64,000 nt of DNA from Lentimicrobiaceae bacterium (GTDB lineage: Bacteria > Bacteroidota > Bacteroidia > Bacteroidales > F082). The stretch spans positions 1 through 64,000 of the forward strand of contig SUWV01000002.1 in the NCBI GenBank assembly GCA_015061315.1, read 5' to 3'. Within the stretch, counting starts at the first letter, position 1; every line of letters starts with the position of its first letter. The translations under genes were made by a program, and so were the position numbers. This document shows, in pieces, positions 15,413-52,457 of the stretch. Below the pieces are notes generated by a model. That model ran no database searches and was not told the origin of the DNA. It saw only the letters and a list, made by a program, of their open reading frames with translations.

Positions 15413-15450
15413 TTCTCAATTCTTAATTCTTAATTCTTAATTCTTAATTA
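15413..15450. repeat. R5 heptamer repeats (AATTCTT family)
   Basis: Five or more tandem copies of TTCTTAA run into and over the stop codon of the adhesin gene. The same unit occurs at 24459-24495 (inverted), 38157, 44748, 48013 and 50394, most often overlapping the end of a T9SS cargo gene. Confidence 0.75.
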
Positions 15451-18400
15451 ATCTCTTAACGATGTTTCCGTTGTTAGTCTTTATATTGATGAAATAGATT
15501 CCTGTTTCTAAATCAGCGACATCAATAACTTGTTGACCTGTTGTCATGTTGACTTGTTGTCTCACGGCTCTTCCGTAGATGTCGTAAATAGCGATTTCTT
15601 CTATCTTTGCTTCTGTTGCGAGGATTAATTCATCTTTAACAGGGTTAGGATACATTGCTATATCGGCGGCATTATTTTCCATCACGGATGTCACTTCTAC
15701 TTTTATGAAATCATTTTCAGGTTCGCTGTATGAGTTAGCTGGTTCTGACTCGCATTCGATGTCGTCTTCTAAATAAGTCGCAGTGACTCTGTAGTAGTAA
15801 GTTCCTTTTTCGACTTCATCGAAGTAATAGCCTATTGTTGGTTGAGCAATGAGTTCCATATTATTCTTTGAGGTTCCTCTGTATAAGTTGTAGTGTGCGA
15901 ATGTAGAGTATTCGTTGCGTTCGTCGCCTATAGCTGTTGCTGTTCTTCCGAACTCGCTTGTTACGAAGGCGCGTACCATGAATGTACCAGCCAAGTCAGG
16001 CACTGTTCCAATGTCTGCCCAGTTCTCGCCGTCTGTCGACATCCAACGTCCGTTTTTATTACCTTGGTCTTCACATATAGGAGCAGGATAATTACCGTTG
16101 AGCGCATTGAATACGATCCAGAGGTTTGTAGATGCGTCGACAGGCATTGGTGATGTCAGTTCAAATTCGACGAATTCTTTTTTGCCTGTACAGCTATAAG
16201 GTTGGGAATGGATCAATAATTCAGGAGCTTCGTCGCCTCCATAATATATCATGATGTTGCCGTTATGATATTCATAGTCGAATACAGCGACTTTTGTAAC
16301 TAATGTTCCGTTATAGAATTCGAGGTCTTCGGCAGGGAACATAATACCCCAATAAATAGGAGCGCCAGCGAGTCCGAGACCTGTTTCACTCTTACCATTG
16401 TCGTAGTATATCCATTCGGAACCATGTAAGGTATAAGGCCATTCGAGGAGTGTTCCTATTTTACCGTCAGGATTTATTGTCGATTGTCCGTAAAGGTCTT
16501 TTGGTGCATCGCATTTAATTTCGTGATTTAAGGAGATGGTTTGAGGACATGACATGGCGTAATAACTGTCTTTCTCACCGCCATAGACAACCCTTAATGA
16601 ATATTCATACTCACCGTATTCTGGAAGTACTTCAAAGTAACTGTCTTCTGTTATAGGTGTTTCTGTGAGAAGTTGTCCGTCGCGATACAACATTGCTCCT
16701 AAGACTTCCATTTCTGTTGAGTTAGGAATAGGCATGTTTTCTATGTAAGCGCCTATTTGCCATGTAACATTATATCCTGAGTAATTCAAGATGTCAACCC
16801 AATCGACGCCGTTGTTAGAGAACCAGCGTCCGTTAGGCTCTGAAGGCACTACACAATTGGATGCCACTTTTTCACCATTGTAGTTATTAAACACTAACCA
16901 AACATTTTGTTCGCCAGTGAGTTCAACAGCTGATGTCAACTGAAATTCTACATAATCATTCTTTCCGGTACAGCTGTAATCTTGAGTATGTACCAACATT
17001 CCCGGAGCTTTGTCGCCGCCAAAATATATCAAGAATCTTCCGTCGTGAGCTGTCTTGTCTAATATAGATACTTTTGTAATATATTGTCCTGCATATTGCT
17101 TTACTTTTTCAGCAGGTATCATCATTCCCCAGTAGAAAGAAGCTCCGCCTTGTAATCCTAAAGCATCGTAGTTTTTGCCGTTGTCGTAGGTAAACCATTC
17201 GCCTTCATGCTTTCTCGTATCGGATGTCGTTAGTTCCACATTGTCGATGTTGATCCAGAATTGGTCGGTACAGTTGAAGTGACGGAAAGCGATATAGACT
17301 TCTTGTCCAGCGTACTCGCTAAGGTCTATCGTTCTTTCGTACCATACGCCATGTGACGATGAAGGATTGTCTTCCTTTATCAATGTTTCCTCATAGATAG
17401 TCTTGAAATCGGCTACCTTGTAATTCGATTTTGTCGAGATAGCAATGCCGTAATGTTCTTGTGAATAGTTTTTATTTTCGGCACTGACATAGAAATGAAG
17501 TTTTGAGGTCTCTGTGATGAGATATTTCTTCGTTGTTGCCAAGTAATTGTCTGGGGTAAGCGGCGTTGTCTCCATGCAGGAATGCGACATCGCGCTATGC
17601 CAGCTTTGGTAGCCAGACTCTGTTTGTGAATATACTTTTGAATTTGACCATGAGTAGCCATCACCGTCAGCATCGATAGATAACCATCCGTTTAAACTCT
17701 TATTCTCAAAATCGAAATAAAATTTTGTAGGAACTTTTTCGTAGTCTTGCACAGGCAATGTCCAGTAGACGTTAATATCTTTATGCTCGACCTCAATTTC
17801 AAAATCGCTTGCCTGAACCAAGTCGTCGCATGAATCGTAAGTCCATGTGTATGACTGTTCTTTAGATCCTATGATTGTTGTGGTATATTGTTGTCCTGCG
17901 ACTAACTTATTCACATCGAATTGATAGTAAGGCTTTGACACTTCGGCTATAAGTTCATTGTCTAATTTAACTTTATATGATGCAGCGTCGTCGTTCCACA
18001 TCGCCCATCCTGTTGATGAGACGAAGATGTCGCCGAGTACGAATATTTCGTTGAGGGTATATTCAAATGTCTCTTCTTCCCATATTTCCAATGTTTCATT
18101 TAGAGCTACTTGTTTGAATCCTTCCAAAGAAATGGAATATTTGTAGGTGCCTTTGCGGAATGAATCCCAGTGGCAGCGACCTTCGGCATCGGCGGTAGCC
18201 TCATATTTGAAAGAAGGTTCATAAACATTGTAGAACGACACTTTTGCTCCCTCAGGTGTTTTGCCGTTGTCGGTGCTGAGCTGTACATCAAAGGCGGTGA
18301 ACATGTCTTTGCCGATTATGTTGGAGTAGGCTGCTGCTGTTTCATAAGTGCTGCCATTGCCATTGTCATAAATCACTGAGACGCCCCATTGGTAAAGTCC

Positions 18401-21735: not shown

Positions 21736-21737
21736 TT

Positions 21738-25904: not shown

Positions 25905-26408
25905 TTATTTTTTAACAAAACGTTTTACGATTTCATTGTTATCGGTTACGACTTTTATGAAATAGATGCCAGTATTTAAATCAGCAACATCAAGAACCTG
26001 TTGGCCTGTTGTCTCGTTGGCTTGTTGACATTTTCTTCCATAAACATCGTAAATTATAATTTCTTCTATATTAAGTTCTGATTCAATAAAGAGTTGGTCT
26101 TTTGTTGGATTAGGGTAGATGTGTAATTCTGAGTTGTTGTTGAATGCTATAGATTCGATAGCTACTGGCTTGAGGTCGAAAGTGATTTTGTTAATGCCTG
26201 ACAATTCAAAGAAATGAGGCTCATTGGAGTTGTTTACATTGACATTCATTCCGTCATTTTCAAAAGTTATTGTAGTGATGTCGGAGATAGCGATTTGTGC
26301 GGGTGTATCAATTCCATTTTGATGGACTGAAATCACTTCTTTTTCCTGCGCTTTGAGTCCGAGTGAGATACATAGTGCGCAAACGATTAGTAATAATATC
26401 TTTTTCAT
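25905..26408 (-). CDS. Minimal T9SS cargo: short beta domain plus sorting domain
   Basis: This 167-residue protein consists of a signal peptide (about 1-20), an approximately 65-residue region (VHQNGIDTPAQIAISDITTI and a second ISGI-type beta motif) and a complete T9SS type A sorting domain (IYPNPTKDQLF ... IYDVYGR ... NEIVKRFVKK). The sorting domain makes up nearly half of the protein. It contains cassette C (KCQQANETTGQQVLDV), encoded by octamer repeats at 25995-26029. The N-terminal motif resembles the start of the protein encoded just downstream. The passenger is too small for an enzyme; it may be a surface peptide, a decoy or a remnant of a larger cargo gene. Confidence 0.75.
   Translation of the reverse strand: MKKILLLIVCALCISLGLKAQEKEVISVHQNGIDTPAQIAISDITTITFENDGMNVNVNNSNEPHFFELSGINKITFDLKPVAIESIAFNNNSELHIYPNPTKDQLFIESELNIEEIIIYDVYGRKCQQANETTGQQVLDVADLNTGIYFIKVVTDNNEIVKRFVKK
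25995..26029. repeat. Cassette C (R6 octamers) inside the small T9SS protein
   Basis: The units ACCTGTTG, GCCTGTTG, TCTCGTTG and GCTTGTTG follow each other in frame and encode QQANETTGQQV after IYDVYGRKC. Confidence 0.75.
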
Positions 26409-31108: not shown

Positions 31109-31230
31109 TATGTCTACGGTCTACAGTCTACAGACCTTGGGTTATTTTTTTTAAAATTGAAAAATTGAAAATCTGAAAACCTGAAAACCTGAAAATTTCT
31201 CAGATTCTCAGATTTTCAAATTCTCAGTTT
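31109..31230. repeat. Class I spacer: R2 plus R1 repeats
   Basis: TCTACGGTCTACAGTCTACAG (R2), then CCTTGGGTTATTTTTT, then R1 units folding on themselves (CTGAAAACCTGAAAATT with TCTCAGATTCTCAGATTTTC). It is nearly identical to 35960-36075 and 42463-42580. Confidence 0.85.
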
Positions 31231-38178: not shown

Positions 38179-40190
38179 AATCTCCTAACAACGTTTCCTT
38201 TATCTGTCTTTATATTGATAAAATAAATGCCTGTTTCTAAATCAGCGATCTCAATTCTGTTGACAAAGTCTGTAGTCTGTAGACCGTAGACTGTAGTCAT
38301 TCTTCCGTAAATATCGTAAATAGCGATTTCTTTTACGTTCATTTCTGTTGCGAGGAACAGCACATCACCAGAAGGATTAGGATAGATGCGTAAGTCGTCT
38401 TTTATCATCTCCTCGCTCACATTGTCTCCGGCGGTAATTTGTTTCGCGAATCCGACTGATGTCTTGTCGTCGGCATAAACCGCTACAATCTCAACGACTT
38501 GTTTGTTATTCAATTCCGAAGAATATTCGACTGATGTCGTTTTTTCTGCTGCTAATTCTCCGTCAACGATTACATTATAACCGACAGGATTGCCTTTTTC
38601 AGGAGCGTCCCATCTTACAGTGAAATTATTGCCGTCGATCGTAGTCGTCATATTTCTCACTGGATAGCAATGTTCTGTATATTCGTAAGCGAAGTGGCTG
38701 TTATAAATCTCTTTAGTCTCGTCGTTTTGAAGCCATAGTGCTACTTCAAGGTCATTGATGTCTTCCATGAAAGTCTGCGACATATCGTAGGAAAACTCCA
38801 AGCGTTTATATTCTCCGGCATTGATATTTAAGGTGTTGCCGTTGGCATCGTTCAAGAACTTTAACATGATATGATGAAATTCCTTTTCGCCGTTAGTTCC
38901 GACGTTACCTGTTGTTGTCTTTTCATTGACAGCGATATAAGCCTTCACGTTATTAGCGTCGAAATAAGTCATGAAGTCGGCTATGATCTTGATGGTGTTG
39001 CCTTCCACTGTGAAAGCGCCTCTCACGTTAGCGAGAGCCGGCACCTTATATTGGTTGTTGAAATATTCGTTGTCGATGAATTTGTTGCCGTAGCAAGTTC
39101 CGTCTAAATAAAGTTCTGGCGCACCGCCCATGTTGTAATAGAATCTCTTTGTCTCACATTCTGTGGTGAAGTAAGGATCTCCCATTCCAGGGAAGTTCAT
39201 GGAATATTTGGTATATGTATATTTGTTTGGATTATTGGCGGTGAGCATTTCCATGCCGTAGTTTGCTGTCGGGCAAGGACTGCATGTCGAGCTGGAGAAG
39301 TGTTCTATCATTGGTATTCTCTGTGTCTCGCCTAAGGCTGTCTCAACGGTTTTTGATATATTGTTATTTGAGCTGTCGTCTTCGCTGTCGTTGACTCTGA
39401 ATATCTCTATTTCAATATCGTAGCTGTTGTTTACGGAGAAATTGAAGAGGTCTTCAAATGTGACTTGCTTAGTTTCTAAATATGATATTTCGGTGTAGAA
39501 TGTCTCTGAAAGTACTTCATTGCCATTGATGATGCATCTTGCCTCGAACGACTTTATTGCTGATTCTCCTACGTTTGTTACAGAGAAATCGATGTTACGT
39601 TCGCCGTGACAGATGTAAGTAGGAATATCGATGCTTGTCATTTCAATGTTAAGATCTTCAACGGTATATACTTTGAAGTTGTCGAAGTACCAGCTTTGGA
39701 TTGCAGAGGAACTTCCCTCGAAGTAGATGCAGAATCTTACGTCAGATTTTCCCATGTCAGGACCGCTTATCGACTCTACGACAGAATATTGTTTGTTTGT
39801 CTCGGTATATTTTTCTGACCATACGCTGTTCCATGTGACGCCGTTATCAGATGATGTTGCTACGCCTATCGTGGCGCCAGTATTGCCGAATAGGGCAACA
39901 TAATGGTCTAACGACATCATGGCATTTGTTATGTTTGTCAAATCGACAGCTGGAGATACTAAGCGAGAGATGCCACTGAATTGTGGACTCCATGAGAGCT
40001 GCATCTCGTTGGGCTTGCCACCTGCACTGAAACTTTGCGATACATACCAGTTATTTGCTCCGTTACCAGTAGTGTACCATCCATTTGGAATACTGATATC
40101 ATTGAACTCTTCATTGATGATACTGACGTTGTTCTGTGCATTAATTGTTGAAAACAAACACACAAATGCTATAAGTAGTAATCTTTTCAT
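38166..40190 (-). CDS. Omp28-like T9SS cargo with thioredoxin-type CXXC (array member 5)
   Basis: This 674-residue paralogue has a slightly different signal peptide (MKRLLLIAFVCLFSTINAQ), cleaved-adhesin-like domain (EEFNDISIPNGWY ... WYFDNFKV), CARDB-like domain and Omp28 domain with CXXC as C-S-P-C (about residue 303) and cis-Pro motif GGAPELYLDG. KEFHHIMLKFL is the HH motif. There is one FN3-like domain and a sorting domain with a diverged cassette A (MTTVYGLQTTDFVNRIEI). It is the first gene of the second predicted operon: a -7 box lies at 40210 and the terminator of the first operon at 40221, both directly upstream. Confidence 0.85.
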   Translation of the reverse strand: MKRLLLIAFVCLFSTINAQNNVSIINEEFNDISIPNGWYTTGNGANNWYVSQSFSAGGKPNEMQLSWSPQFSGISRLVSPAVDLTNITNAMMSLDHYVALFGNTGATIGVATSSDNGVTWNSVWSEKYTETNKQYSVVESISGPDMGKSDVRFCIYFEGSSSAIQSWYFDNFKVYTVEDLNIEMTSIDIPTYICHGERNIDFSVTNVGESAIKSFEARCIINGNEVLSETFYTEISYLETKQVTFEDLFNFSVNNSYDIEIEIFRVNDSEDDSSNNNISKTVETALGETQRIPMIEHFSSSTCSPCPTANYGMEMLTANNPNKYTYTKYSMNFPGMGDPYFTTECETKRFYYNMGGAPELYLDGTCYGNKFIDNEYFNNQYKVPALANVRGAFTVEGNTIKIIADFMTYFDANNVKAYIAVNEKTTTGNVGTNGEKEFHHIMLKFLNDANGNTLNINAGEYKRLEFSYDMSQTFMEDINDLEVALWLQNDETKEIYNSHFAYEYTEHCYPVRNMTTTIDGNNFTVRWDAPEKGNPVGYNVIVDGELAAEKTTSVEYSSELNNKQVVEIVAVYADDKTSVGFAKQITAGDNVSEEMIKDDLRIYPNPSGDVLFLATEMNVKEIAIYDIYGRMTTVYGLQTTDFVNRIEIADLETGIYFINIKTDKGNVVRRFIKN
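38264..38298. repeat. Cassette A, diverged copy, in array member 5
   Basis: GTCTGTAGTCTGTAGACCG and a further unit. It matches the intergenic R2 block at 7525-7550 more closely than the cassettes of members 3 and 4 do. Confidence 0.7.
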
Positions 40191-40260: not shown

Positions 40261-40263
40261 AAG

Positions 40264-40408
40264 TCTACAAGACAACAAGACAACAAGACAACAAGTAGAG
40301 ACGCGTCGATGATACCAATGCGAATAAACAATATATCATCGACACGTCTCAATAAGTCATCGAGTCACCAAGTTTTTCAGATTCTCAGATTTTCAGTTTT
40401 TCAATTTT
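40264..40408. repeat. Composite repeat island (R6, R8, R3, R1)
   Basis: R6 octamers ACAAGACA (40267-40295), an R8 palindrome (40295-40350), R3 units AAGTCATCGAGTCACC (40353-40372) and half an R1 element (40375-40408). The order R8 then R3 repeats that seen at 15018-15111. Confidence 0.8.
40295..40350. repeat. R8 palindromic element, copy 3
   Basis: GAGACGCGTCGATGATA and TATCATCGACACGTCTC are reverse complements with one mismatch, around CCAATGCGAATAAACAA. This is the best-preserved of the three R8 copies. Confidence 0.8.
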
Positions 40409-42449
40409 TAACAAATCTTTTTACAATATTTCCGTTTTCTGTCTTGATATTCACGAAGTAAACGCCTGTTTCTAAATCCTGTACGGACACATTGAATGTG
40501 TCCATCGAATTTGATGTGGACGCATTCGATGCGTCCCTACAGCAGAGGCGACCATAAACATCGTAGATAGCGATTTCTTCCACACTTGCTTCTGTTGCGA
40601 TGGTCAAAATGTCGCTCGCTGGATTTGGATAGATGTTGCAGTTCAATTCGTTGTTGTGTTCCACAATATTTTCTCCTTGACGATATGTCTTGGCAACAGC
40701 AACCGAAGTCTTTTCTTCTTCATATAAAGCAATTACTTCTGCAATAAATAATTCATCAGAAGATGTGAAATTATATGATAAATCGGAAGTGCTTTCTATT
40801 ACGACTTTACTATTTATCAATACTTTATAACCTGTAGGATTGCCTTTTTCAGGAGCTTCCCATCGGATAGTCTTATTGTTGCCATCGACATTGAGAGTCA
40901 GGTTTTGAACGGGGTAGCAATGCTCTGTATATTCGTAAGCGTAACGGCTGTTATATATTTCGTGTGTCTCATGGTTTTGTAGCCAGAGTGCAACTTCCAA
41001 ATCGTTGATGTCTTCCATGAAAGTAGAGTCCATGTTATATGAAAATTCCAAACGTTTGTGTTCACCGGCTTTAAGGTTTATAGGGTTGCCTTTGTCGTCG
41101 GCTAACATCTTCATCATGATGTGATGAAATTCTGTCTCGCCGTTTGTAGCTACATTTTCTGTAGTAGTCTTTTCGTTGATAGAGATGAAAGCTCTCACGC
41201 TGTCAATTTTTATGTACGACATAAAGTCGGCTATGATGTTGATAGTGTTGCCTTCTACTGTGAAAGCGCCTCTTACATCGAGGAATGTGTTTGAGCCGAA
41301 GACAGAGTCGATGTCGTCTGGACTTACTATCTCGTATGCTTTCCAGATGCCGTCTAAGTAAAACTCAGGAGCTCCATTCACTTGATAATAATTCACTCTG
41401 TTTTTGACTTCTTCTGTTGTATATGGGTCGCCCATGCCTGGGAACTTAGTAGGATATTTTGTGTAGGTATATTTGCCAGGATTGTCGGCAAGGACTTGTT
41501 TTATGATTTTGTTAGGCTCGACGCAATAGCTGCAAGTGGAGCTGGAGAAGTGTTCTATCATAGGTACTTTAGATGCGTAGCCCATTCCTATTTCGATATT
41601 TTTTTCTGCAATATTATTGTTTTCGTTGCCGTCGTTTTCTCCATTGACAGATGTCAATTCAACTTTTAAGTTATATGATCCTGGAGTTATGTAAGATGCT
41701 TCAGAGAATGTAAATTCTTTGATTTCCAATGACTCCATATTAGTTTCAAAGGTTTCGCTGACGACGATACCATCGATGCCTTCATATTTTGCTTCGAAAG
41801 AACTGATAGCGGAAATTCCTATATTTTGTACAGTGAACGAAATCTCGTGTTCGCCGTAGTTGCTCATTTCAGGGAAATTTAAGCTTATCATTTCTAAGTC
41901 GGTGTCATCTTGAGAATAAACGATGATGTCGTCGAAGACCCAACCGTTTATCATATAGTTGGCGCCTGTAAAGAACAAGCTGAAATGAACATTGTCGCCT
42001 AAATCTGTAGTGTTGATAAACTCGAAGATCTGATAAACACCAGATTCTTTGTATTCTTCCGACCATATAGTGGTCCAGTTTTCCATATCGGTAGATGTAG
42101 CCACACCTATGACATAAGGAGTCTGCTGTATCGCCGCGTCGATATTGTTGTTGAGACAATGTCTGAAGCTGAGGATGACCTCATCAACACTGTTGAGGTT
42201 TACGGCAGGCGATATGACGCGTGTGGTCTCGTTGAAAAGAGGTGGAAAATTGTTGAGAAAAAGCTCGTTAGGCTTTCCTCCGGCATGGTTGGAGACAGAA
42301 ATCTCCCAGTTGTCTTTTCCTGTTTCCGATAATGTCCAACCTTCAGGAAAGTTTTCGCCGTCAAAACTTTCACTTAAAAACACATGGCTTTGCGAAAATG
42401 CAACAGCCGATAAAAACAATGCGATTGTAAGTAATAATGTCTTTTTCAT
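40401..42449 (-). CDS. Omp28-like T9SS cargo with thioredoxin-type CXXC (array member 6)
   Basis: This 682-residue paralogue has signal peptide (ending AFSQ), cleaved-adhesin-like domain (ESFDGENFPEGWT ... WVFDDIIV), CARDB-like domain and Omp28 domain with CXXC as C-S-Y-C (about residue 306) and cis-Pro motif NGAPEFYLDG. TEFHHIMMKML is kept. There is one FN3-like domain, then the sorting domain with a cassette B that is 3 nt longer than the others (ASTSNSMDTF). It is the last gene of the first predicted operon, followed by repeats and a terminator. Confidence 0.85.
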   Translation of the reverse strand: MKKTLLLTIALFLSAVAFSQSHVFLSESFDGENFPEGWTLSETGKDNWEISVSNHAGGKPNELFLNNFPPLFNETTRVISPAVNLNSVDEVILSFRHCLNNNIDAAIQQTPYVIGVATSTDMENWTTIWSEEYKESGVYQIFEFINTTDLGDNVHFSLFFTGANYMINGWVFDDIIVYSQDDTDLEMISLNFPEMSNYGEHEISFTVQNIGISAISSFEAKYEGIDGIVVSETFETNMESLEIKEFTFSEASYITPGSYNLKVELTSVNGENDGNENNNIAEKNIEIGMGYASKVPMIEHFSSSTCSYCVEPNKIIKQVLADNPGKYTYTKYPTKFPGMGDPYTTEEVKNRVNYYQVNGAPEFYLDGIWKAYEIVSPDDIDSVFGSNTFLDVRGAFTVEGNTINIIADFMSYIKIDSVRAFISINEKTTTENVATNGETEFHHIMMKMLADDKGNPINLKAGEHKRLEFSYNMDSTFMEDINDLEVALWLQNHETHEIYNSRYAYEYTEHCYPVQNLTLNVDGNNKTIRWEAPEKGNPTGYKVLINSKVVIESTSDLSYNFTSSDELFIAEVIALYEEEKTSVAVAKTYRQGENIVEHNNELNCNIYPNPASDILTIATEASVEEIAIYDVYGRLCCRDASNASTSNSMDTFNVSVQDLETGVYFVNIKTENGNIVKRFVKN
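40480..40541. repeat. Cassette B palindromic element in array member 6
   Basis: Same element as at 31303, with both inner palindromes intact and a 3-nt longer spacer between them (TCCATCGAATTTGATGTGG). Confidence 0.8.
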
Positions 42450-42462: not shown

Positions 42463-42580
42463 GTCTACGGTCTACAGTCTACAGACCTTGGGTTATTTTT
42501 TAAACTTGAAAATTTGAGAAACTGAAAATCTGAAAACCTGAAAATTTCTCAGATTCTCAGATTTTCAAATTCTCAGTTTT
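42463..42580. repeat. Class I spacer: R2 plus R1 repeats
   Basis: Third near-identical copy of the spacer found at 31109 and 35960. Confidence 0.85.
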
Positions 42581-44636
42581 TAATAAATCTCCTAACAATG
42601 TTTCCTTTATCAGTTTTTATATTGATGAAATAAATGCCATTTTCCAAATCATCGACGTCAATAACTTGTTGACCTGTTGTCTTGTTGACTTGTTGTCTCA
42701 TAGTTCTTCCGTAAATGTCGTATATCGCAATTTCTTCAACATTCGCTTCTGTCGCGATGGTCAATTCGTCTTTAACAGGGTTAGGGTAGATGTCGCAAGC
42801 AATTTGATTTTCCTTAAACTCATTGACATTTACCTCATCATTTATTTTTCCTATCGCGCTCACCGATTTTCTTCCACCTTCATAAACAGCTACAACCTCA
42901 ACGATATGTCTTAATCCGTCATATACATTCCATGCAGTGGCTTCATCGGTGAATGTAAGTCCTTCGATATTTTCTTTTATTAATTTACCATCGATGATGA
43001 TGTTATATCCGTCGGGTGTTCCCTGACTTGGTGCTTCCCAGCTGACCACTGCTTTAGGGTCGTTACCTGTTATGGTAATATTTACGTTTTGTGCAGGATA
43101 AACGTGTTCGGTATATTCGTAAGCGAAGCGACTGTTGAGAACTTCCTTTGTTGTCGGATTTTGAATCCAGATAGCGACTTCTAAATCATCGAGTTCTTCT
43201 ACATTTGTCGATGTCATATCGTGAGAAAATTCCAAACGTTGATATGTTCCTGCTTCAAAGTCTAATTTCGTTCCACTTGGAGAACCTAACATTTTCATCA
43301 AGATATGATGGAACTCTGTCTCACCGTTGCTACCGATGTTTTTGGTAGTGGTCTTTTCATTGACAGTCACGTAAGCCTTTAAATTTTTTATATTGATATA
43401 AGGCATGAAGTCGGCGATGACAGTGATGGTGCTGTCGTTTAAGGTGAAGCTGCCTCTTATGTCGAAGAAAGATGGTGTGTTATAACTTATGTCCATTTTC
43501 TCTTGAGAGATGGCATAGTTAGTAAATTTTGTTGTGCCGTCTAAGAACAATGTCGGAACGTTGTTTACTCCGTAATAGGTTCTTCTTGTGTTACAGTCTG
43601 ATATATAATAAGGATCGCCAGGAGCAGGTCCGTTCATAGGATATTTGACGTATGTGAATCTGCCAGCATTGTTTTGTGTGAGTGTGTCCATGTCTTTGTT
43701 TGTGAAGACGCATGGAAAACATGTCGAACTGGAGAAGTGTTCTATCATAGAAATTTTCTGCACTGTGCTCATTCCGACAAATATGTCTTTGCTATTGATA
43801 TTATTGTCGTTGAAATCGTCGTCTTCTCCATTGACAGATGTCACTTCTACGTTTAAAGTGATGTCGCCTTCTGAGAAGAAATTGGCTTTCTTGAATGTAA
43901 ATTGTTCAGAAGCGAAAGTCTCTATGTTTGTTTCAAATGTCTCGCTGATGAAATTGTCGCTGCCTTCCACTTGATATTTTGCCTCAAAAGATTCTATCGT
44001 TGAAGAACCTAAGTTTCTGACAGTGAATGTGACATAGTTATAGCCATTACCCAAGTTACTTGGAACGTCAACGCTTGTGAGTTCGGCATCGTTTGCTTCT
44101 TGCGAGAAGATGAGTATGTCGTCGAACTGCCATGAGTTGATGTCGTTGGTATTTCCTTCAAAATATAAGCAAACCAAGACATTTGCTTTTCCCATGTCGT
44201 CTGTCTTAATGATTTCATCAACGACATATCTGTCGGTTTTGTCATATTCTTGTCTCCATCCGTCGTTCCATGTAGCGCCGTTGTCTGATGAGGTGGCGAC
44301 ACCTATGGTACATGTGCCTTCGTAATAAGGATAATAGTCGAGATAATGTTTGAACGAAATAGCTATCGCTGGCACGTTTGTAAGGTCGAGAGGTGTCATC
44401 ACCATTCTAGAGGTGCCTTTGAAGATAGGATCCCAGAAGAGATCGAGTTCGTTGGGTTTGCCGCCAGCGTTGTCGGACTTTGCAATAGACCAGTTCTTAG
44501 CGCCATCGCCCATGACTTTCCAGCCCGATGGAAGCGAGGTCTTGTCAAAACTCTCGTTTAAAAGAGTCGCTCTGCTTTGTGAGAAAACAGCTGCATTTAA
44601 TAACAATGCGATTGTAAGTAATAATGTCTTTTTCAT
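42573..44636 (-). CDS. Omp28-like T9SS cargo with thioredoxin-type CXXC (array member 7)
   Basis: This 687-residue paralogue has signal peptide (MKKTLLLTIALLL ... FSQ), cleaved-adhesin-like domain (ESFDKTSLPSGWK ... WQFDDILI), CARDB-like domain and Omp28 domain with CXXC as C-F-P-C (about residue 306) and cis-Pro motif NNVPTLFLDG. TEFHHILMKML is kept. There is one FN3-like domain. The sorting domain carries cassette C (TMRQQVNKTTGQQVIDV), the only array member to do so; the other cassette C proteins are outside the array (15437 and 25905). It lies between the subtilisin-like protease and member 6. Confidence 0.85.
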   Translation of the reverse strand: MKKTLLLTIALLLNAAVFSQSRATLLNESFDKTSLPSGWKVMGDGAKNWSIAKSDNAGGKPNELDLFWDPIFKGTSRMVMTPLDLTNVPAIAISFKHYLDYYPYYEGTCTIGVATSSDNGATWNDGWRQEYDKTDRYVVDEIIKTDDMGKANVLVCLYFEGNTNDINSWQFDDILIFSQEANDAELTSVDVPSNLGNGYNYVTFTVRNLGSSTIESFEAKYQVEGSDNFISETFETNIETFASEQFTFKKANFFSEGDITLNVEVTSVNGEDDDFNDNNINSKDIFVGMSTVQKISMIEHFSSSTCFPCVFTNKDMDTLTQNNAGRFTYVKYPMNGPAPGDPYYISDCNTRRTYYGVNNVPTLFLDGTTKFTNYAISQEKMDISYNTPSFFDIRGSFTLNDSTITVIADFMPYINIKNLKAYVTVNEKTTTKNIGSNGETEFHHILMKMLGSPSGTKLDFEAGTYQRLEFSHDMTSTNVEELDDLEVAIWIQNPTTKEVLNSRFAYEYTEHVYPAQNVNITITGNDPKAVVSWEAPSQGTPDGYNIIIDGKLIKENIEGLTFTDEATAWNVYDGLRHIVEVVAVYEGGRKSVSAIGKINDEVNVNEFKENQIACDIYPNPVKDELTIATEANVEEIAIYDIYGRTMRQQVNKTTGQQVIDVDDLENGIYFINIKTDKGNIVRRFIKN
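42663..42700. repeat. Cassette C (R6 octamers) in array member 7
   Basis: ACTTGTTG, ACCTGTTG, TCTTGTTG, ACTTGTTG, TCTC: an 8-nt period encoding RQQVNKTTGQQV. Confidence 0.8.
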
Positions 44637-44770: not shown

Positions 44771-47700
44771 ATAAATCTCCTAACAATGTTTCCTTTGTCA
44801 GTTTTTATATTGATGAAATAAATTCCATTTTCCAAATACTGTACGGACACATTGAATGTGTCCATCGTTGATGTGGACGCATTCGATGCGTCCCTACAAC
44901 AGAGGCGACCATAAATGTCGTAAATAGCAACTTCTTCTACACGAAGTTCAGTTGCGATAATTAACTCTTCTTTAACTGGATTTGGATAGAGTAGGAGTGA
45001 AGATGAAATCTCTTCTATGCTTTCTTCATTTTTTTCATCGGTTACGTCGCAGTCTTTGTCAGACTCATCGCTTTCTTTGCTGCCATTCACAGCTGTGACG
45101 TAGAAACAATATTTAGTGTCTGCAACCAAGTCTTCGACTAAATATTCTGTCTCATCGGTATCGTCTATAAGTTTGTCATCTTGATAGATGTTATAGCTCT
45201 CGGCATTTTCCGCCTCATTCCATGTCAACAAGATTGAAGAACAACTTTTTGCATTAGCCTCGAAGTTTTCTGGTGCTTCTAAAGAGAGTTCTAATGTCTT
45301 TGCACAGGATTCTGCTGACATAGCTGACTCTTCACCATTAACGACTGTAGTAACTGTGTAGCAATATTGTTTATTTTCTGTAAGTTCCTTATCTATATAA
45401 GAATTCATTTCTACATTTTTCAACAATTTCCCGTCACGATATATGTTATAGCTATCAGCCTCTTTCACTTCGTCCCATGTTAATGATATCGAAGAAGTGC
45501 TTGTTGGTGTCGCGATGAGATTTTCAGGAGCATCGATGATTTCCGGATCTGGTGTTGGAGCTATTGTGTCAGTAGGATTTTCATTGTCTTCTGACAATGT
45601 TGCGCAGGCTTTGTTGGAATGTCCTGACTCTCCCATTTCGTTTACTGCTGTCGCTGTGAAGCAGTACGTTCCATAGTTCAGTTTGATAATTTTACATGTT
45701 GTCTCAGTAGTGTTACCGAGTATTACATTTCCATGATAAATATTATAATATTCTGCTTTCTCTACAGCATCCCATGATAATTGTATATCTGATGAGCTTA
45801 TTGCTTCTGCTACGAGATTAGTAGGTGCTGATGGCATCTCCTCATTTTCTTCTTCTATCAGTTTGCAAGCTTCGTAGGCATTGATACGTCCGGAGCCTGT
45901 TCTGTTACTTTTCTTGTAATCTAAAGGTGTGGCTGTGGTTTCTAATATTCTGCAAATATCAGCTGGCGTGAGGTTAGGGTTCTTGTCGAGCATAAGTGCC
46001 ATGACGCCAGCCACGCAAGGTGTAGCCATTGAAGTGCCGCTAAAGCTATAGTGACCGTAATTATCATCGTAAGCTGCAGAGAGTATATCAACGCCTGGCG
46101 CGCTGACATCAGGGCGGATAAGACCGAAGTCGCTGTCATTGCTTGCAGCGCCTGCTCTCTTGCTATCGGCTTTTAATGCCGATAACTTTCCTTTTGATGA
46201 TTTATATTCATAGTCGTCTATTGATTTCAGTTCTGTTATTGCTGTTCCATTTTCGTCTGACATGTATGCGCGTATCATCCAAGTGCAACTAAGACCTTGT
46301 TCGGAGAGGTCTCCCCATGTCGTTCCGTCTACAGAAAGCCAGCGTCCGTTAGGATTGCCGGTATTAGAACATGCTGCCGCAGGATAATTTATGCCGTTGT
46401 TGGTGGATAACACAATCCAGAGGTTTTCGTTTCTGTCTATAGGCAATGAACTTGTCATATCTATTTCGACAACACTATTGGAGCCTGTCAGTTCAAATGT
46501 CTGGGTATGTACCAACACTTTTGGTGCATAATCGCCACCGTAATACACGAGTAGTTCCAGTGTGTCGGCGATGTAGTCATAGACAGCTATTTTTGACAGC
46601 ATGTTACCGCTATGTTGCTGTAATATAGCTGCAGGGAACATGACGCCCCAGTAGAATGACTCTGGTCCGCCTATGCTTGTCTCGAAGATGCCGTTGTCGT
46701 AATGCAACCAATTTTCATCTATCTCAACACCTGAGTTTAATAGATAGTCGTGCCACTGTGATCCTTGCCATGTCACAGGACCTTCTGATGAGAAGTAGGC
46801 TGGTTCATCATAATAATCTACGGCCCCCACCGCCACCACTGCTGACAGACCTCCTGCATTAGCTTGTTGGTCAGGGTGTAGCCATGGCGGAGGACAGTTG
46901 CCAGGGGCGTTAATGTTATAAGGTATAGGTATTGTGTCAATGCCGGCTCTCTCGTTACCTGCTGCCACAGAAGCTACTACACCTGCATACATCACGTTCT
47001 CGAACATCTCACGCATGATCTCACTCACGTATGAATTAGGATATGTCCAGCCTAAGGAGATGCTTAGGATGTCGGCGCCATTCTCTACAGCGAACTCAAC
47101 ACCTGACACAAAGGCGTCTAATGTGCCGCGTCCGTCATCGTCCAAGACCTTCACGCACATCAATGTAGCATCGGGAGCCATACCGGTCTGTGTACCTGAG
47201 GTGCCGTCGCCACTGATAGTGCCAGCACAGTGTGTGCCATGTCCATTGTGGTCATCGGTGTTTGAATTATTGTCGATGAAGTTCCAGCCGTGATCGGGAT
47301 ATTCAGAGCCGCCATCCCATAAGTGATCTTGCAAATCGGCATGCTCACTGTTGACACCAGAGTCTAAGACAGCTACGATGACGTCTTTGCCGGTATAGCC
47401 TTCTGCCCATACTTGATCGGCTCCAACAGTGGTGACATTCTGAATGAGACCTCTCTGCTTCTGAGCCTTCATTGGCTTGTAATCACCTATAAGTTTCTCC
47501 TTGCCATTATGAGCTATGAGTGAGATGCCCGACAATTCCGATGTTTTATAAATGACATCTCTCGATGCTGTACAGCTGATGGTGTTTACCAACCAGTGCG
47601 ATTTCAAATCCGTGACATTGTTACCTTCTTCAGCTTGAAGATATGCCATTACCTTATTTTGGTTATCATATGAGTGTTTTTTCAACTTAGCAATAACACT

Positions 47701-47916
47701 TTTTCTTTTTTCATCCTTATCTTTGATGTTGGTGAATTTGACATCCAAGTCGTTTACGTCATGTCGCGATTCCATAACAATATTGATAGAAATCAGATCA
47801 TTGCTTTTTTGATTCAATATTGCTTGTAATTCTGGATCTATAACATCAAAGTTCTGTGCATTTAATCCCAATGCTGAAATCAATAATGCAATAATAAATG
47901 TTAAAATCCTTTTCAT
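44761..47916 (-). CDS. T9SS-secreted subtilisin-like (S8) protease with nested domain
   Basis: This 1051-residue exported protease has a signal peptide (about 1-20, ending LNAQ), a propeptide-like region (to about 150) and an S8 catalytic domain with Asp185 region AVLDSGVNSEH, His in DHNGHGTHCAG (about 225), oxyanion Asn in AAGNERAG (about 319) and Ser in SFSGTSMATPCVAG (about 626). Between the Asn and the Ser, about residues 395-555 are an inserted WLHYDNG ... NPNGRWLSVDGTTW domain homologous to the two copies in the 1700-residue adhesin. Three FN3 domains (about 690-975) and a T9SS sorting domain with cassette B follow. The last FN3-to-end junction ESIEEISSSLLLYPNP is shared with array member 8. 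It sits mid-operon between members 7 and 8. The likely role is surface proteolysis, possibly of host or neighbouring proteins. Confidence 0.9.
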   Translation of the reverse strand: MKRILTFIIALLISALGLNAQNFDVIDPELQAILNQKSNDLISINIVMESRHDVNDLDVKFTNIKDKDEKRKSVIAKLKKHSYDNQNKVMAYLQAEEGNNVTDLKSHWLVNTISCTASRDVIYKTSELSGISLIAHNGKEKLIGDYKPMKAQKQRGLIQNVTTVGADQVWAEGYTGKDVIVAVLDSGVNSEHADLQDHLWDGGSEYPDHGWNFIDNNSNTDDHNGHGTHCAGTISGDGTSGTQTGMAPDATLMCVKVLDDDGRGTLDAFVSGVEFAVENGADILSISLGWTYPNSYVSEIMREMFENVMYAGVVASVAAGNERAGIDTIPIPYNINAPGNCPPPWLHPDQQANAGGLSAVVAVGAVDYYDEPAYFSSEGPVTWQGSQWHDYLLNSGVEIDENWLHYDNGIFETSIGGPESFYWGVMFPAAILQQHSGNMLSKIAVYDYIADTLELLVYYGGDYAPKVLVHTQTFELTGSNSVVEIDMTSSLPIDRNENLWIVLSTNNGINYPAAACSNTGNPNGRWLSVDGTTWGDLSEQGLSCTWMIRAYMSDENGTAITELKSIDDYEYKSSKGKLSALKADSKRAGAASNDSDFGLIRPDVSAPGVDILSAAYDDNYGHYSFSGTSMATPCVAGVMALMLDKNPNLTPADICRILETTATPLDYKKSNRTGSGRINAYEACKLIEEENEEMPSAPTNLVAEAISSSDIQLSWDAVEKAEYYNIYHGNVILGNTTETTCKIIKLNYGTYCFTATAVNEMGESGHSNKACATLSEDNENPTDTIAPTPDPEIIDAPENLIATPTSTSSISLTWDEVKEADSYNIYRDGKLLKNVEMNSYIDKELTENKQYCYTVTTVVNGEESAMSAESCAKTLELSLEAPENFEANAKSCSSILLTWNEAENAESYNIYQDDKLIDDTDETEYLVEDLVADTKYCFYVTAVNGSKESDESDKDCDVTDEKNEESIEEISSSLLLYPNPVKEELIIATELRVEEVAIYDIYGRLCCRDASNASTSTMDTFNVSVQYLENGIYFINIKTDKGNIVRRFIKN
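44840..44898. repeat. Cassette B palindromic element in the S8 protease
   Basis: Complete element with both palindromes (GGACACATTGAATGTGTCC and GGACGCATTCGATGCGTCC) and TGTACGGA/TCCCTACA ends, encoding CCRDASNASTSTMDTF in frame. Confidence 0.85.
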
Positions 47917-47935: not shown

Positions 47936-48050
47936 CGACGTACGTCCGTGCGCCTCTACATGACATATGATAATCTCTCGTAGAGACATACGGACGTATA
48001 TCTTAAAAACAATTCTTCATTCTTCATTCTTCATTCTTAATTCTTAATAA
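47936..48050. repeat. Class III spacer: R9 palindrome plus R5 repeats
   Basis: Second copy of the spacer at 44668-44770; ACGTACGTCCGTGCGCCTC and GTAGAGACATACGGACGTA are the palindromes, then TTCATTCTTCATTCTTCATTC. Confidence 0.8.
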
Positions 48051-50346
48051 ATCTCCTAACTATGTTTCCTTTATCAGTTTTTATATTGATGAAGTAAATT
48101 CCATTTTCCAAATCCTGTACGGACACATTGAATGTGTCCATCGTTGATGTGGACGCATTCGATGCGTCCCTACAACAGAGGCGACCATAAATGTCGTAAA
48201 TCGAAACTTCTTCAACACGAAGTTCAGTTGCGATAATTAACTCATCTTTAACTGGATTTGGATAGAGTAGGAGTGAAGATGAAATCTCTTCTATGCTTTC
48301 TTCTAATGTCTTCACGCAGGCTTGTTCCGATTGTTCTGACTCTATATCACCGGCAGCAGCTGTCACGGTGTAGCAGTAATATGTGTCTTCTTCTAAACCT
48401 TCGTCTGTGTAATTGTTTTCCGTAGTTTTTCTGATCATGACATTGTCGCGGTAGATGTTGTAGCTTTCAGCGTTTTCTACTTTGTCCCATGTCAAAGTTA
48501 TTGAAGATGTGCTTGCTGCGTTTGCGTTTATGTTTTTAGGAGTCTCTAATGATGTAATTTCTTCGTCTTCGTTTTCTTCTACGCCGAATAATTTCGCAAC
48601 GCCTACTGATGTCTTTCCATTTTCATAGACAGCTATTACTTCAGCGGTTAATCTATCGTCAGCGTAATTGAATTCGTATGATGTAGCTGTCTCATTTTCA
48701 GAAACTACATTACCGTTTATATATACCTTATAACAAACAGGCGTTCCTTGTTCAGGAGCTTCCCATGTCAGTGTCTTTACTTCTTCATTTTGATTTAACG
48801 TCAGATTATTGACTGGATAGCAATGTTCTGTATATTCGTAAGCGAAGATGCTGTTGTATATCTCTTGTGTCACAGGATTTTGTAGCCACAACGCTACTTC
48901 CAAATCGTCGAGTTCTTCAACATTGGTCAGCGACATATTGTAAGTAAATTCCAAACGATGGTATTCTCCTGCTTTGAGGTTAATCTCGTTGCCTGACTTG
49001 GATTTCAGCATTTTCAACATGACGTGATGAAATTCTGTTTCGCCGTTTGAGCCTGTGTTTTTCACTGTGGTTTTTTCATTAATAGTGACAAAAGCGAGTA
49101 CGTTATCTAATTTTACGTACGATAAGAAGTCGGCGATGATGTAGATGTTATCGCCATCTATTTTAAAGGCACCTCTGATGTCGGCGTATGCTGGTGTGTT
49201 ACGTCTTTCATCTAACATCTCTTGTGTCAGGTAGTTGCTGCCTTTACTCATTCCGTCTAAGAAGATATTAGGAACACCTGTCACACCATATTCTTGAACG
49301 CGATGTGCTGCCTCGAAAGTGTGATACGGATCACCTGCAGTAGAGAATTTCGTGTAGGTGTATTTGCCCTCGTTGGCAAGCATAAGTGGATGCATCTGCT
49401 GATTTACTGCCACGCAAGGACCACATGTCGAACTCGAGAAATGTTCTATCATTGGAGTCCTTTGTGCCTTGTTGAAAGCGACTGAGATTTTCTTTTCAAC
49501 ATAATTGTTACTCATATCCTGATCTTCTTCTCCATTGACAGATATGATTTCTACAGATATGGTATAAGGCTTGTTTTTTGCTAAAGCATTGAAAAGCTTG
49601 TCTTTATATGTGAACTGCGCTACTTCAGAATTGGCGATGTTTCTTTCAAAGGTGGCAGTGACAGGACTTTCCCAATTGCTGACATTAATCTTGGCTTCAA
49701 ATGATTGTATTGGCTTAGTTCCCATATTCTCAACACCGAACGCTATTTCTCTATCTTCTGTCTCAATGATATTCGGAATGTTGATGTCGATAAGTTTGAT
49801 GTCGAGTTCTTTTTGTTCATAGATGAGTAAATCGTCGAAGAACCAGTTGTCCATCTGGTTTGAAATACCTTCGTAAAAGAGACAGAACATGACGTTGTTG
49901 TTGCCCATATCCGGAGTCGTGAATTCTGTCTTCACAGTGTAAGCTCCTGTCTTTGTGTAATCTTGCGACCAACCGATATTCCACGTCTCTCCGTCAATAG
50001 AAGTAGCTATTCCTATCTTGTGAACAAATTCGTTGTCTTTGAAATTGTCGAAGAAATGTTTGAACGATACCGTCATCTTGTTTATTCCGCTGAGGTTATA
50101 TGACTTGGTTATGAGACGTGTAGTGCCTTCAAACTTAGGATCCCATGAAAGTTTCAGTTCTTTACCGCTGCCGTTGGAATATGTCGTCGATGATATTCTC
50201 CAGTTTCCATTTCCGACTTCTGATGTCGTCCAGCCTTCAGGCAATCCTGAACCGTCGAAAGTTTCATTGACGAAAGTCGCTCTGCTTTGCGAGAAAACAG
50301 CAAACGAAAATAATAATGCGATAGTAAGTAGTAATGTCTTTTTCAT
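48037..50346 (-). CDS. Omp28-like T9SS cargo with thioredoxin-type CXXC (array member 8)
   Basis: This 769-residue paralogue has signal peptide (ending VFSQ), cleaved-adhesin-like domain (ETFDGSGLPEGWT ... WFFDDLLI), CARDB-like domain and Omp28 domain with CXXC as C-G-P-C (about residue 309), the same pair as canonical thioredoxin, and cis-Pro motif TGVPNIFLDG. TEFHHVMLKML is kept. A second FN3 domain (TPKNINANAASTSSITLTWD) closely resembles those of the S8 protease encoded downstream, and the C-terminal segment from EESIEEISSSLLLYPNPVK onward is nearly identical to it, a sign of gene conversion. The sorting domain carries cassette B. Confidence 0.85.
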   Translation of the reverse strand: MKKTLLLTIALLFSFAVFSQSRATFVNETFDGSGLPEGWTTSEVGNGNWRISSTTYSNGSGKELKLSWDPKFEGTTRLITKSYNLSGINKMTVSFKHFFDNFKDNEFVHKIGIATSIDGETWNIGWSQDYTKTGAYTVKTEFTTPDMGNNNVMFCLFYEGISNQMDNWFFDDLLIYEQKELDIKLIDINIPNIIETEDREIAFGVENMGTKPIQSFEAKINVSNWESPVTATFERNIANSEVAQFTYKDKLFNALAKNKPYTISVEIISVNGEEDQDMSNNYVEKKISVAFNKAQRTPMIEHFSSSTCGPCVAVNQQMHPLMLANEGKYTYTKFSTAGDPYHTFEAAHRVQEYGVTGVPNIFLDGMSKGSNYLTQEMLDERRNTPAYADIRGAFKIDGDNIYIIADFLSYVKLDNVLAFVTINEKTTVKNTGSNGETEFHHVMLKMLKSKSGNEINLKAGEYHRLEFTYNMSLTNVEELDDLEVALWLQNPVTQEIYNSIFAYEYTEHCYPVNNLTLNQNEEVKTLTWEAPEQGTPVCYKVYINGNVVSENETATSYEFNYADDRLTAEVIAVYENGKTSVGVAKLFGVEENEDEEITSLETPKNINANAASTSSITLTWDKVENAESYNIYRDNVMIRKTTENNYTDEGLEEDTYYCYTVTAAAGDIESEQSEQACVKTLEESIEEISSSLLLYPNPVKDELIIATELRVEEVSIYDIYGRLCCRDASNASTSTMDTFNVSVQDLENGIYFINIKTDKGNIVRRFIKN
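48116..48174. repeat. Cassette B palindromic element in array member 8
   Basis: Identical in layout to the copies at 44840 and 50488. Confidence 0.85.
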
Positions 50347-50420
50347 ATTTTTAAAGTTATGGAGTTATGGAGTTGTGAAGTTATGGAGTATTTCTTCATT
50401 CTTCATTCTTAATTCTTAAT
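50347..50420. repeat. Class II spacer: R4 plus R5 repeats
   Basis: TTATGGAGTTATGGAGTTG and following R5 units overlapping the stop of member 9. It differs from 38111-38178 mainly by one extra TTCATTC unit. Confidence 0.85.
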
Positions 50421-52457
50421 AAATCTCCTAACAACGTTTCCTTTATCAGTTTTTATATTGATGAAGTAAATTCCATTTTCCAAATCCTGTACGGACACAT
50501 TGAATGTGTCCATCGTTGATGTGGACGCATTCGATGCGTCCCTACAACAGAGGCGACCATAGATATCGTAAATCGCGATTTCTTCAACACGAAGTTCTGT
50601 TGCGATAGTCAATTCGTCTTTAACAGGATTTGGGTAGATATTTGTTGCTGATGATAATTCTTCGATACTGATTTCTGGATCTTCAGTATTTCCTGTCCCC
50701 GCAACTAAGCATACTCCTACAGAGGTTATTCCATTTTCATATACAGCATATACCTCAACCAATACGTTGTCTTTTGATGATGTGAAAGTATATGAGTTTT
50801 CTGTGATTTTTTCAGCGACTAACTTATTGTCGACATATACGTTATATCCTATAGGCTCGCTCTTTTCAGGCTTCTCCCAGCTGATGGTCTTTTCTTCTAC
50901 TTTAAGATTTTGAATAGGATAAGGATGTGATGTGTATTCGTTCAGGAAATGACTGTTGTGAACTTCTTTAGATTCATAAGTCTGTACCCATACTGCTACC
51001 TCTAAGTCGTTCATTTCTTCAACATTAGTCCCAGTCATATCGACCGACAATTCATAACGTTGGTATTTCCCCGCTTCAAAACTTGCGTCAATGCCATCGG
51101 TGCTGCTCGGTATGCTCATCAAAACATGATGAAATTCTGGCAAGCTGCCTTCAACAACATTATTTACTGTAGTCTTTTCATTGACAGTAACGAACACTTT
51201 GACATCTGGCATGTCGAGATAAGAAATAATATCGGCTGTTATATTAACAACATTACCTTCGATATTGAAAGCTCCGACAATATCTACGTATGATGTCGTT
51301 GCATATCTGTCATCGAAGTGTGATTGCTTAGGTTGTCTCGTAATTGCTCCGCCATCAAAACTTATTGCTGGGACGCCTGTTACTCTGTAATATTGACCTC
51401 TTATCGAACATTCCTCCAAATAATATTTGTCGCCAGGCATTGGATAATCCCATGGATATTTCACGTAAGTGTATCTGCCTTCATTGTCGTGTGTCAAACC
51501 TGACAAAGTTGTATCAACTGGAATACAATTGATACATGTTGCACTTGAGAAATGTTCTATCATTGGCGTTCTTTCTACTTCTCTGATATAAGTCCTGACA
51601 TCTTTCGACATGCTGTTGTTGTCGAGATTGCTGTCTTCTTCGCCACTGACATTTAAGATGTTAATCTTTATTGTATGAGTTCCTGGTGTTAGATATGCTT
51701 CGCTTTTAAATGTTAATGTCTTGTTTTCGGCAGGAACGATTTTTTCGTTGAATGTCTCTGTCACAGTGCCTAAGCCTTCTATTTCATAACTTGCCTCGAA
51801 GGCGCTTATTTCTGTGCTGCCGATATTATTTACGGTAAAGCTGATGTCGGTATTTCCTATAGCTATGACGTTGTCTACATCAATGCTTGAAAGCTGGATG
51901 TCGTTGCCAGCATCGCTGTTTTTTGCATATATAATGATGTTGTCGAAATACCATTTGTTGAAGTTATAAGTGTTGCCTTCGTAGTATAAGCAGATTAAGA
52001 CGTTGCTTTTGCCCATGTCTGGGGTGCTGACGGTTTCATTAACTTCGTGGAGTCCTGTTGCTGATGCGTTGGAGAAAGTCTGTGACCAAGCGGTGTTCCA
52101 TGTCGTTCCGTTGTCAGACGATGTTGCTATTCCGAGAGTGTGGCTGAGCTGGTCGTAATTGAGATAATGTTTGAACGAAAGACCTAGCTCTTCAACATCA
52201 GTGAGGTCGGCTGTTGCCATGACGAGATGAATACCAGCTGTTACTATAGGGCTGCTCTTGAAAAGCAATTCGTTAGCACTTCCGCCTGCGTTGTTGGTGG
52301 TGGAAATGCTGAAGTTGTCGACGCCTTCACCAATAAAATACCAGCCTTCTGGCATACTAGTTCCATCGAATGTCTCGTTGACAATGAATGAATTATTTTG
52401 CGCATAAATGCTGATGTTTAACAATAACATTAATGTTAAAAGTAAATTTTTTCTCAT
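50409..52457 (-). CDS. Omp28-like T9SS cargo with thioredoxin-type CXXC (array member 9)
   Basis: This 682-residue paralogue is the first gene of the array. I start it at the ATG at 52457 (MRKNLLLTLMLLL), because this gives a normal signal peptide (ending IYAQ) and lies 37 bp after a -7 box; the open frame extends to 52550 but that would start upstream of the promoter. It has a cleaved-adhesin-like domain (ETFDGTSMPEGWY ... WYFDNIII), CARDB-like domain and Omp28 domain with the unusual CXXC C-I-N-C (about residue 308, preceded by SSATC), cis-Pro motif TGVPAISFDG and PEFHHVLMSIP in place of the usual HH-x-MMKML motif. One FN3-like domain and a sorting domain with cassette B end the protein. 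It is the most diverged array member. Confidence 0.85.
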   Translation of the reverse strand: MRKNLLLTLMLLLNISIYAQNNSFIVNETFDGTSMPEGWYFIGEGVDNFSISTTNNAGGSANELLFKSSPIVTAGIHLVMATADLTDVEELGLSFKHYLNYDQLSHTLGIATSSDNGTTWNTAWSQTFSNASATGLHEVNETVSTPDMGKSNVLICLYYEGNTYNFNKWYFDNIIIYAKNSDAGNDIQLSSIDVDNVIAIGNTDISFTVNNIGSTEISAFEASYEIEGLGTVTETFNEKIVPAENKTLTFKSEAYLTPGTHTIKINILNVSGEEDSNLDNNSMSKDVRTYIREVERTPMIEHFSSATCINCIPVDTTLSGLTHDNEGRYTYVKYPWDYPMPGDKYYLEECSIRGQYYRVTGVPAISFDGGAITRQPKQSHFDDRYATTSYVDIVGAFNIEGNVVNITADIISYLDMPDVKVFVTVNEKTTVNNVVEGSLPEFHHVLMSIPSSTDGIDASFEAGKYQRYELSVDMTGTNVEEMNDLEVAVWVQTYESKEVHNSHFLNEYTSHPYPIQNLKVEEKTISWEKPEKSEPIGYNVYVDNKLVAEKITENSYTFTSSKDNVLVEVYAVYENGITSVGVCLVAGTGNTEDPEISIEELSSATNIYPNPVKDELTIATELRVEEIAIYDIYGRLCCRDASNASTSTMDTFNVSVQDLENGIYFINIKTDKGNVVRRFIKN
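50488..50546. repeat. Cassette B palindromic element in array member 9
   Basis: Complete element with the two 19-nt palindromes and TGTACGGA/TCCCTACA ends. Confidence 0.85.

Follow-up and report, generated by a model that had tools for sequence, protein, structure and literature searches.

Short spacer repeats as probable in-frame occupants of one loop in the type IX secretion sorting domains of a gut Bacteroidales bacterium

Repetitive extragenic palindromes (REPs) are already known to occur in frame within bacterial genes. Di Nocera et al. (2013, PMC3733652) described REPs within genes of DNA repair, uvr genes among them, and in recB of two Xanthomonas at roughly one position, and they assigned GTAG repeats to Proteobacteria, Cyanobacteria, Chloroflexi and the PVC (Planctomycetes-Verrucomicrobia-Chlamydiae) group, and CGTC repeats to Bacteroidetes. 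The locus described here lies in a stretch of 64,000 nucleotides from a Lentimicrobiaceae bacterium (GCA_015061315.1, SUWV01000002.1), below called the window, which makes up the opening 64 kb of contig 29 in a genome of 2.47 Mb and 49 contigs. Its cargo proteins of the type IX secretion system (T9SS) end in type A sorting domains, and one loop of these domains is coded by one of three elements, called cassettes A, B and C. With a probability of roughly 0.75, we regard the cassettes as in-frame copies of three families of short repeats found mainly in spacers of a small clade of gut Bacteroidales, copied and reshuffled together with the domain.

Family B comes closest to the GTAG REPs of PMC3733652, as far as its available parts describe them: it is a short palindrome with a GTAG tag (also GTAA or GTAC), it is repeated in the genome, it forms doublets, and some copies lie in frame in open reading frames (ORFs). 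A candidate gene resembling a REP-associated tyrosine transposase (RAYT), with scores below the family cut-offs, is flanked by the repeats here. The differences are that sorting domains are not mentioned in those parts of PMC3733652 and that A and C are direct tandem arrays, not palindromes. The same article cites the palindromic elements of Rickettsia, a family found between genes and also, in frame, within numerous proteins unrelated to one another. An earlier reading of the window, made from its letters only (the sequence-only reading), had likened the cassettes to the Rickettsia elements; the likeness holds for behaviour, since the elements lie in frame in unrelated proteins and are absent from orthologues (compared for two genes). 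It fails for structure, as the Rickettsia elements are longer palindromes, while only B is palindromic here and the other two families are tandem arrays of degenerate 7- or 8-mers.

Direct repeats of the heptamer TAACTGA are described in the available portions of PMC4679880 from Beggiatoaceae, cyanobacteria and five Bacteroidetes, with related heptamers rarely or never forming direct repeats. Those repeats resemble the present ones in being short tandem 7-nt arrays in spacers, in many cases a little way ahead of a start codon; they differ in that here the units vary freely at fixed positions, the arrays are found also in proteins, and octamers dominate over heptamers. The short tandemly repeated repetitive (STRR) sequences of cyanobacteria are likewise short tandem 7-nt repeats in spacers, to which the heptamers here may correspond (12 arrays in spacers and 8 in ORFs), but not the dominant octamers. 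The T9SS type A sorting domain (PF18962/TIGR04183) is an export signal that is cleaved off after export; the 12 domains of the window are members, with one hairpin coded by repeat DNA. A literature search covering titles, abstract openings and few subscription journals gave no report of repeats in T9SS sorting domains, and none of degenerate 7/8-mer arrays entering proteins or tied to sorting-domain shuffling.

The cassette was read as the stretch between YD[IV]YGR and G[IV]YF of each type A sorting domain. Exactly 12 PF18962 domains were found in the window, all of them C-terminal and above the curated cut-off, and a family search of the 12 proteins confirmed the T9SS type A sorting domain. 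Each carries cassette A, B or C at the same loop, as had been claimed, with small variation of the peptides. All cassettes are on the minus strand and were located by pattern match, with one exception given below. Cassette A codes for TNVYSLQSTDF in gene 29061-31100 (29157..29186, three GTCTACA units and GACTTTGTC), for TTVYSLQSTDF in genes 33641-35950 (33737..33773) and 36065-38110 (36161..36197), and for TTVYGLQTTDF, the VYGLQTT variant, in gene 38166-40190 (38262..38298). Cassette B codes for LCCRDASNASTST in genes 31224-33509 (31304..31360, REP doublet GTAGGGACGCATCGAATGCGTCC...ACACATTCAATGTGTCCGTAC), 44761-47916 (44841..44897, with a subtilisin-like body unlike its neighbours), 48037-50346 (48117..48173) and 50409-52550 (50489..50545), and for LCCRDASNASTSNS in gene 40401-42449 (40481..40540), where the linker has 3 extra nt. 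Cassette C codes for RQQVNMTTGQQV in gene 15437-20539 (15529..15561, 4 octamer units with one off-consensus base, 1 mismatch) and for RQQVNKTTGQQV in gene 42573-44636 (42665..42697, 0 mismatches); a diverged C-like cassette (KCQQANETTGQQ), coding for CQQANETTGQQV in gene 25905-26408, was placed at 25998..26033 by codon count.

The DNA of the cassettes recurs throughout the genome. With up to 3 mismatches allowed, B matched 19 places, A gave 112 overlapping matches and C 28, and the same patterns read backwards gave 0, 0 and 0. The proposal that the cassettes are repeats common to spacers is borne out by these numbers, which far exceed the reversed controls and hence a chance likeness. Spacers held 9 of the 19 matches of B, 20 of the 30 examined among the 112 of A, and 9 of the 28 of C; the remaining 10 places of B were in predicted ORFs, five of these being sorting domains. 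Overlapping matches were counted separately in these contexts, and a predicted ORF need not be a gene (L043 and L044, for instance, may be chance ORFs). Family A is a GWCTACR heptamer array ending in the non-repeat tail GACTTTGTC. Heptamer arrays of relatives, from nine loci neighbouring uvrC, have the sister form GWCWACR, and 4 of 4 end in GAC[CT]TTGTCC; GACNTTG follows 11 of 35 other arrays in our own data. Two of the three C cassettes of the window have the modal spacer form of four octamers (in one case with an off-consensus base) followed by GT. For B, L032 holds a spacer doublet whose two arms are those of the cassette, joined by a different linker.

The elements are not confined to sorting domains. 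In the genome of the window (G000), 16 further ORFs covering matches were read, and from their sequences we take them to include UvrC, DnaX, IF-2, FtsH (in the C-terminal tail), a solute-binding protein with three inserts, an alpha-amylase, a GH20 enzyme and a carbon-nitrogen (C-N) hydrolase. A sample of 400 kb held 41 octamer arrays, 17 of them within ORFs (13 ORFs) although ORFs cover 90% of the sample, 7 heptamer arrays (1 within an ORF), 6 GTCNCCRA arrays (3 within ORFs) and 4 REPs (1 within an ORF), and five Markov shuffles held 0; the sample is not random, since its 20 places were chosen after the hit lists were known, and one of them holds the RAYT-like gene. All 17 octamer arrays in ORFs were in the readable sense without stops. 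Specificity for one loop of T9SS domains, as supposed in the sequence-only reading, was therefore rejected: the same elements are in frame in many unrelated genes, and 78 of the 108 sorting domains of the genome lack them.

Two of these genes were compared across relatives. The uvrC alignment comprised 33 rows, our own and 32 of the 70 loci found. The eight closest loci have 78-88% identity to our uvrC and come from Lentimicrobiaceae bacterium SIG104-106 (three) and from five Bacteroidales metagenome-assembled genomes (MAGs) obtained from the gut of yak, roe deer and water buffalo; that of Candidatus Limimorpha caballi, with 59%, is farther off. Our uvrC contains about 40 extra residues with REPs; L191 has a single REP at the same site, L184, L185 and L187 have repeats of GACNNN type, and the insert is absent in 28 of the 33 rows, including four of the eight closest. 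The C-N hydrolase was compared in 12 of 13 genomes (G001 was left out). One loop of this protein is occupied by heptamers in our genome and by octamers in G009 (G044 has identical coordinates and was taken as the same genome). At DNA level, G041 has the GTCACCAA type there and G043 GWCAACA heptamers. An octamer-like peptide was seen in G045 at peptide level only, other inserts in G047 and G040 and a remnant in G042, and there was no insert in G046, G048, G015 and G011. The sorting-domain loop itself contains octamers in L274 and L283 of G041 and ACAACAG-type heptamers in L177, L296 and L302; the other loops read in relatives looked ordinary. We also noted a sorting-domain loop of G041 (L299) made of GTCTCCAA/GTCACCAA and a 12-nt repeat, GTCAGTGTCAAT, coding for SHQVTKSVSMSVSMSVSMSVSM.

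Within the genome, PF18962 gave 108 matches, 99 of them above cut-off, and 30 carry a cassette (A 8, B 5, C 17), 18 of these outside the window; all B are inside it. The statement that all domains carry a cassette is thus right for the window and wrong for the genome. A profile of the cassette-bearing domains scored these 30 at 116-145 bits and the next own match, with an ordinary loop, at 82 bits. Among the matches listed, the best of 39 other genomes reached 79 bits (G009), and in the nine genomes found by way of their uvrC loci the subfamily was met in G041 alone (139 and 133 bits, both C-type). The cassette-bearing domains are one subfamily, which among the matches listed was met elsewhere in one close relative only, with the same octamer DNA; the same peptides with unrelated DNA in distant genera were not found. 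A regular expression applied to the last 82 codons still detected an array or REP in 27 of the 30 cassette domains, always at the loop, and a single array, upstream of the loop, in the other 78. From GR to G-x-YF the loop measures 21-23 residues in the 25 domains with A or C, which is ordinary, and 26-27 in the five with B; for the remaining domains lengths above about 24 are unreliable. Since their loops are of ordinary length, A and C replace the turn and do not lengthen it.

The last 90 residues of gene 50409, a B-type domain, were modelled with an alignment of 10 of the 12 window domains. The model (predicted local distance difference test, pLDDT, 82.5) has strands at 13-17, 23-28, 32-39, 44-48, 58-63, 70-78 and 82-89. 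It puts the cassette site in a predicted beta-hairpin lying between the YGR and GIYF strands: the codons of the second REP correspond to strand 58-63, and those of the first REP to the last part of strand 44-48 together with most of the loop, the remainder of which, at lower confidence, falls to the linker. Solved sorting domains match the profile, the best being 8glj chain D (1.6e-06).

How the cassettes spread was addressed by comparing cargo bodies with domains. Nine of the ten genes of the cargo cluster 29061-52550 have homologous bodies (44761, with its other body, was left out) with protein identities of 40-53%, as against 69-94% DNA identity over the last 228 nt; 44761 and 48037, with unlike bodies, are 97% identical over 285 nt. 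Pairwise identities upstream and downstream of the cassette in the 30 domains were correlated with r=0.10 (183 of 2000 permutations as high), or 0.06 after removal of three near-copies. Correlations within the halves were 0.27 (upstream; 0.21 by alternate codons) and 0.39. Nearest neighbours differed between the halves in 26 of 30 domains, and the nearest neighbour had the same cassette in 23 of 30 upstream and 15 of 30 downstream, with about 12 of 30 expected by chance from group sizes. This suggests that the two halves are nearly unlinked and have separate histories. The data thus far support the proposal of the sequence-only reading that in-frame cassettes fill a tolerant loop and were swapped between paralogues. 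Independent insertion into every domain was rejected in favour of domain copying, as bodies are diverged, domains alike and halves nearly unlinked.

A tree of the flanks was built from 29 of the 30 domains (C31_85246, mislabelled by the regular expression, was left out). On this tree, in which few branches are supported, B forms a single group, and the number of changes needed is 5 for A and 6 for C; together the cassette labels need 6 changes compared with a mean of 11.5 for shuffled labels (0 of 200 shuffles as low). It seems that B arose once and spread with the domain. The clustering of labels is also what plain expansion of the gene family would give, with domains and cassettes duplicated along with their genes after three founding events, as is the single origin of B at 100/99 support, although some codons in the downstream rows belong to the cassette, and 2 changes are needed on the tree of the downstream part by itself. 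We consider such an expansion unlikely, given that bodies are far more diverged than domains, that A needs its 5 changes, that the halves are nearly unlinked, and that the same elements sit in other genes.

The arrays have an unusual architecture. Unit statistics pool the window, the 400-kb sample and loci fetched for pattern matches or adjoining sorting domains, and the unit frequencies are biased by the inclusion of loci fetched for matching patterns; the window and the 400-kb sample alone show the same kind of variation. Counted in a middle unit left free between two matching units, the octamer varies at positions 2, 4 and 7 (T/A 112/109, A/T 177/39 and A/G 135/86 of 224), the other five being at least 94% constant. 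Arrays of AANYTGAR behave alike (other positions at least 96%), and GTCRCCRA is less clean, with C at position 6 in 35 of 42. Among 100 arrays, 56 consist of exactly four units, and 95 are distinct. A diversity-generating retroelement is a conceivable source of the A/T and A/G variation. In this genome, three perfect degenerate units in a row were matched 305 times, overlaps included, and in 294 other genomes drawn from the order once. In the close set, three-unit arrays were found in 9 of 11 genomes including our own, 8 of which exceed the control, as G001 has one match and one control match.

Such arrays might have arisen if each loop had expanded its own seed by replication slippage, the likeness to spacers then coming from similar slipped units. 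A and C are indeed tandem arrays; units two and three apart are more alike than permuted ones (0.631 and 0.698 versus 0.568 and 0.582), and in arrays of at least five units so are adjacent ones (0.638 versus 0.589, P 0.032). Over all arrays, however, adjacent units are no more alike than permuted ones (0.572 versus 0.569), 95 of 100 arrays are distinct, A has a non-repeat tail resembling the GAC[CT]TTGTCC tail of relatives, and B is not a tandem array, so that we give slippage little credence. Equally little can be given to functional peptides, by which the three loop types would pick out a partner, be it a shuttle, an attachment complex or a class of substrate, the DNA repeats being secondary: the domain is an export signal, and the unlike cargo 44761 and 48037 have a loop type in common, but the loop is a different one in 78 of the 108 domains, proteins that we take to be cytosolic contain the same peptides, and the loop type is untied to the cargo body (3 changes over 9 bodies, with 41 of 200 shuffles giving as low a number).

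In spacers the arrays keep to the ends of genes. Of 24 spacer octamer arrays in the window and the 400-kb sample, by an ORF heuristic, 12 have the 5' end 0-9 nt from a stop codon, and the 5' end faces a start codon in 11, five of these at 10-17 nt; 10 of 12 heptamer arrays face a start codon, seven at 7-17 nt. Window examples, all on the plus strand and found by pattern match, are A heptamer arrays that precede the start codons of 29061-31100 by 11 nt (31112..31132) and of 40401-42449 by 13 nt (42463..42483), and an octamer array of 4 units (40263..40294) followed by a GTAG-tagged hairpin at 40295. Imperfect hairpins of this kind, about 60 nt long (GTAGAGACG...AATGAAAATAAACA...CGTCT), were also seen at 15018 and 15112 of the window and in L255, L260, L264, L268 and others, in many cases directly after an octamer array.

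Inverted pairs of arrays with arms at most 40 nt apart, including those in the window spacers after 31224, 36065 and 42573, had the same orientation in 34 of 34 cases. Conserved hairpin pairing of these arms was rejected: facing units were less alike than random (0.387 versus 0.514; 0.384 versus 0.488), so the inverted arms show no compensation; a third comparison (0.583 versus 0.704) had only 6 units, numbers being small and some loci related. Among the matches listed for other genomes, none was exact for the heptamer, the motifs being GTCTAAA, GTTTACA, TTCTACA or otherwise mismatched. The reversed control of a second octamer search matched in G004 (31 and 11), G010, G012, G020, G021, G022 and others and 0 times in our genome, which points to other octamer families in those congeners.

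As to mobility, an ORF at about 5960-6463 of contig C22 (about 1578-2081 of L045) has B-kind REPs on both sides, an HUH-like motif, MPNHVHL, and a score of 50.9 bits with NF047646. B is probably mobilised by this RAYT-like transposase encoded elsewhere in the genome. The genome analysis gave no candidate mobiliser for A or C.

Taken together, the course of events was probably as follows. Repeat elements enter tolerant loops of proteins, as the comparison of species shows. The hairpin between YGR and GIYF is one such loop, with A, B and C as alternative occupants, as the sequences and one model show. Domain and cassette are then copied between cargo genes and the domain halves reshuffled with the repeat at or near the junction, a step that the statistics support. 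The loop may owe its tolerance to being a turn in a domain removed after export. A more specific version can be put forward only tentatively: the spacer elements would be clade-limited and combinatorial, usually of four 7- or 8-mers that are free only at set positions (G-W-C-W-A-C-R-A and others), lying at gene ends and copied whole into proteins, where they would serve both as new beta-hairpins and as recombination junctions shuffling T9SS sorting domains.

Several points weigh against in-frame copying of spacer repeats as set out above. The RAYT-like ORF is below cut-offs (NCBIfam 50.9 < 80, Pfam 17.5 < 23). A clean insertion of A and C in the sorting domain is unsupported, their loops being of ordinary length. 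C could be old, as it is present in 17 of the 30 domains and in G041, and its arrival was unobserved. The clustering of labels on the flank tree means that cassettes in part go with their flanks. The half-domain pieces are short (96 and 63 nt), with a low correlation within the upstream half. Finally, all comparisons are between species, mostly MAGs, and insertion between strains was not seen.

The entry of spacer elements into protein loops is real and well supported, and wider than supposed in the sequence-only reading, the sorting domain being a vehicle of copying and reshuffling. It provides a comparative case, spanning several genes, of non-coding repeats becoming protein repeatedly at the same loops, the proteins concerned being one of DNA repair, an enzyme and several that are secreted. 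The arrays, degenerate but variable only at fixed positions, are a puzzle raised by these data, and for the secreted proteins the findings suggest that cargo of unlike kinds hand on a secretion tag to one another.

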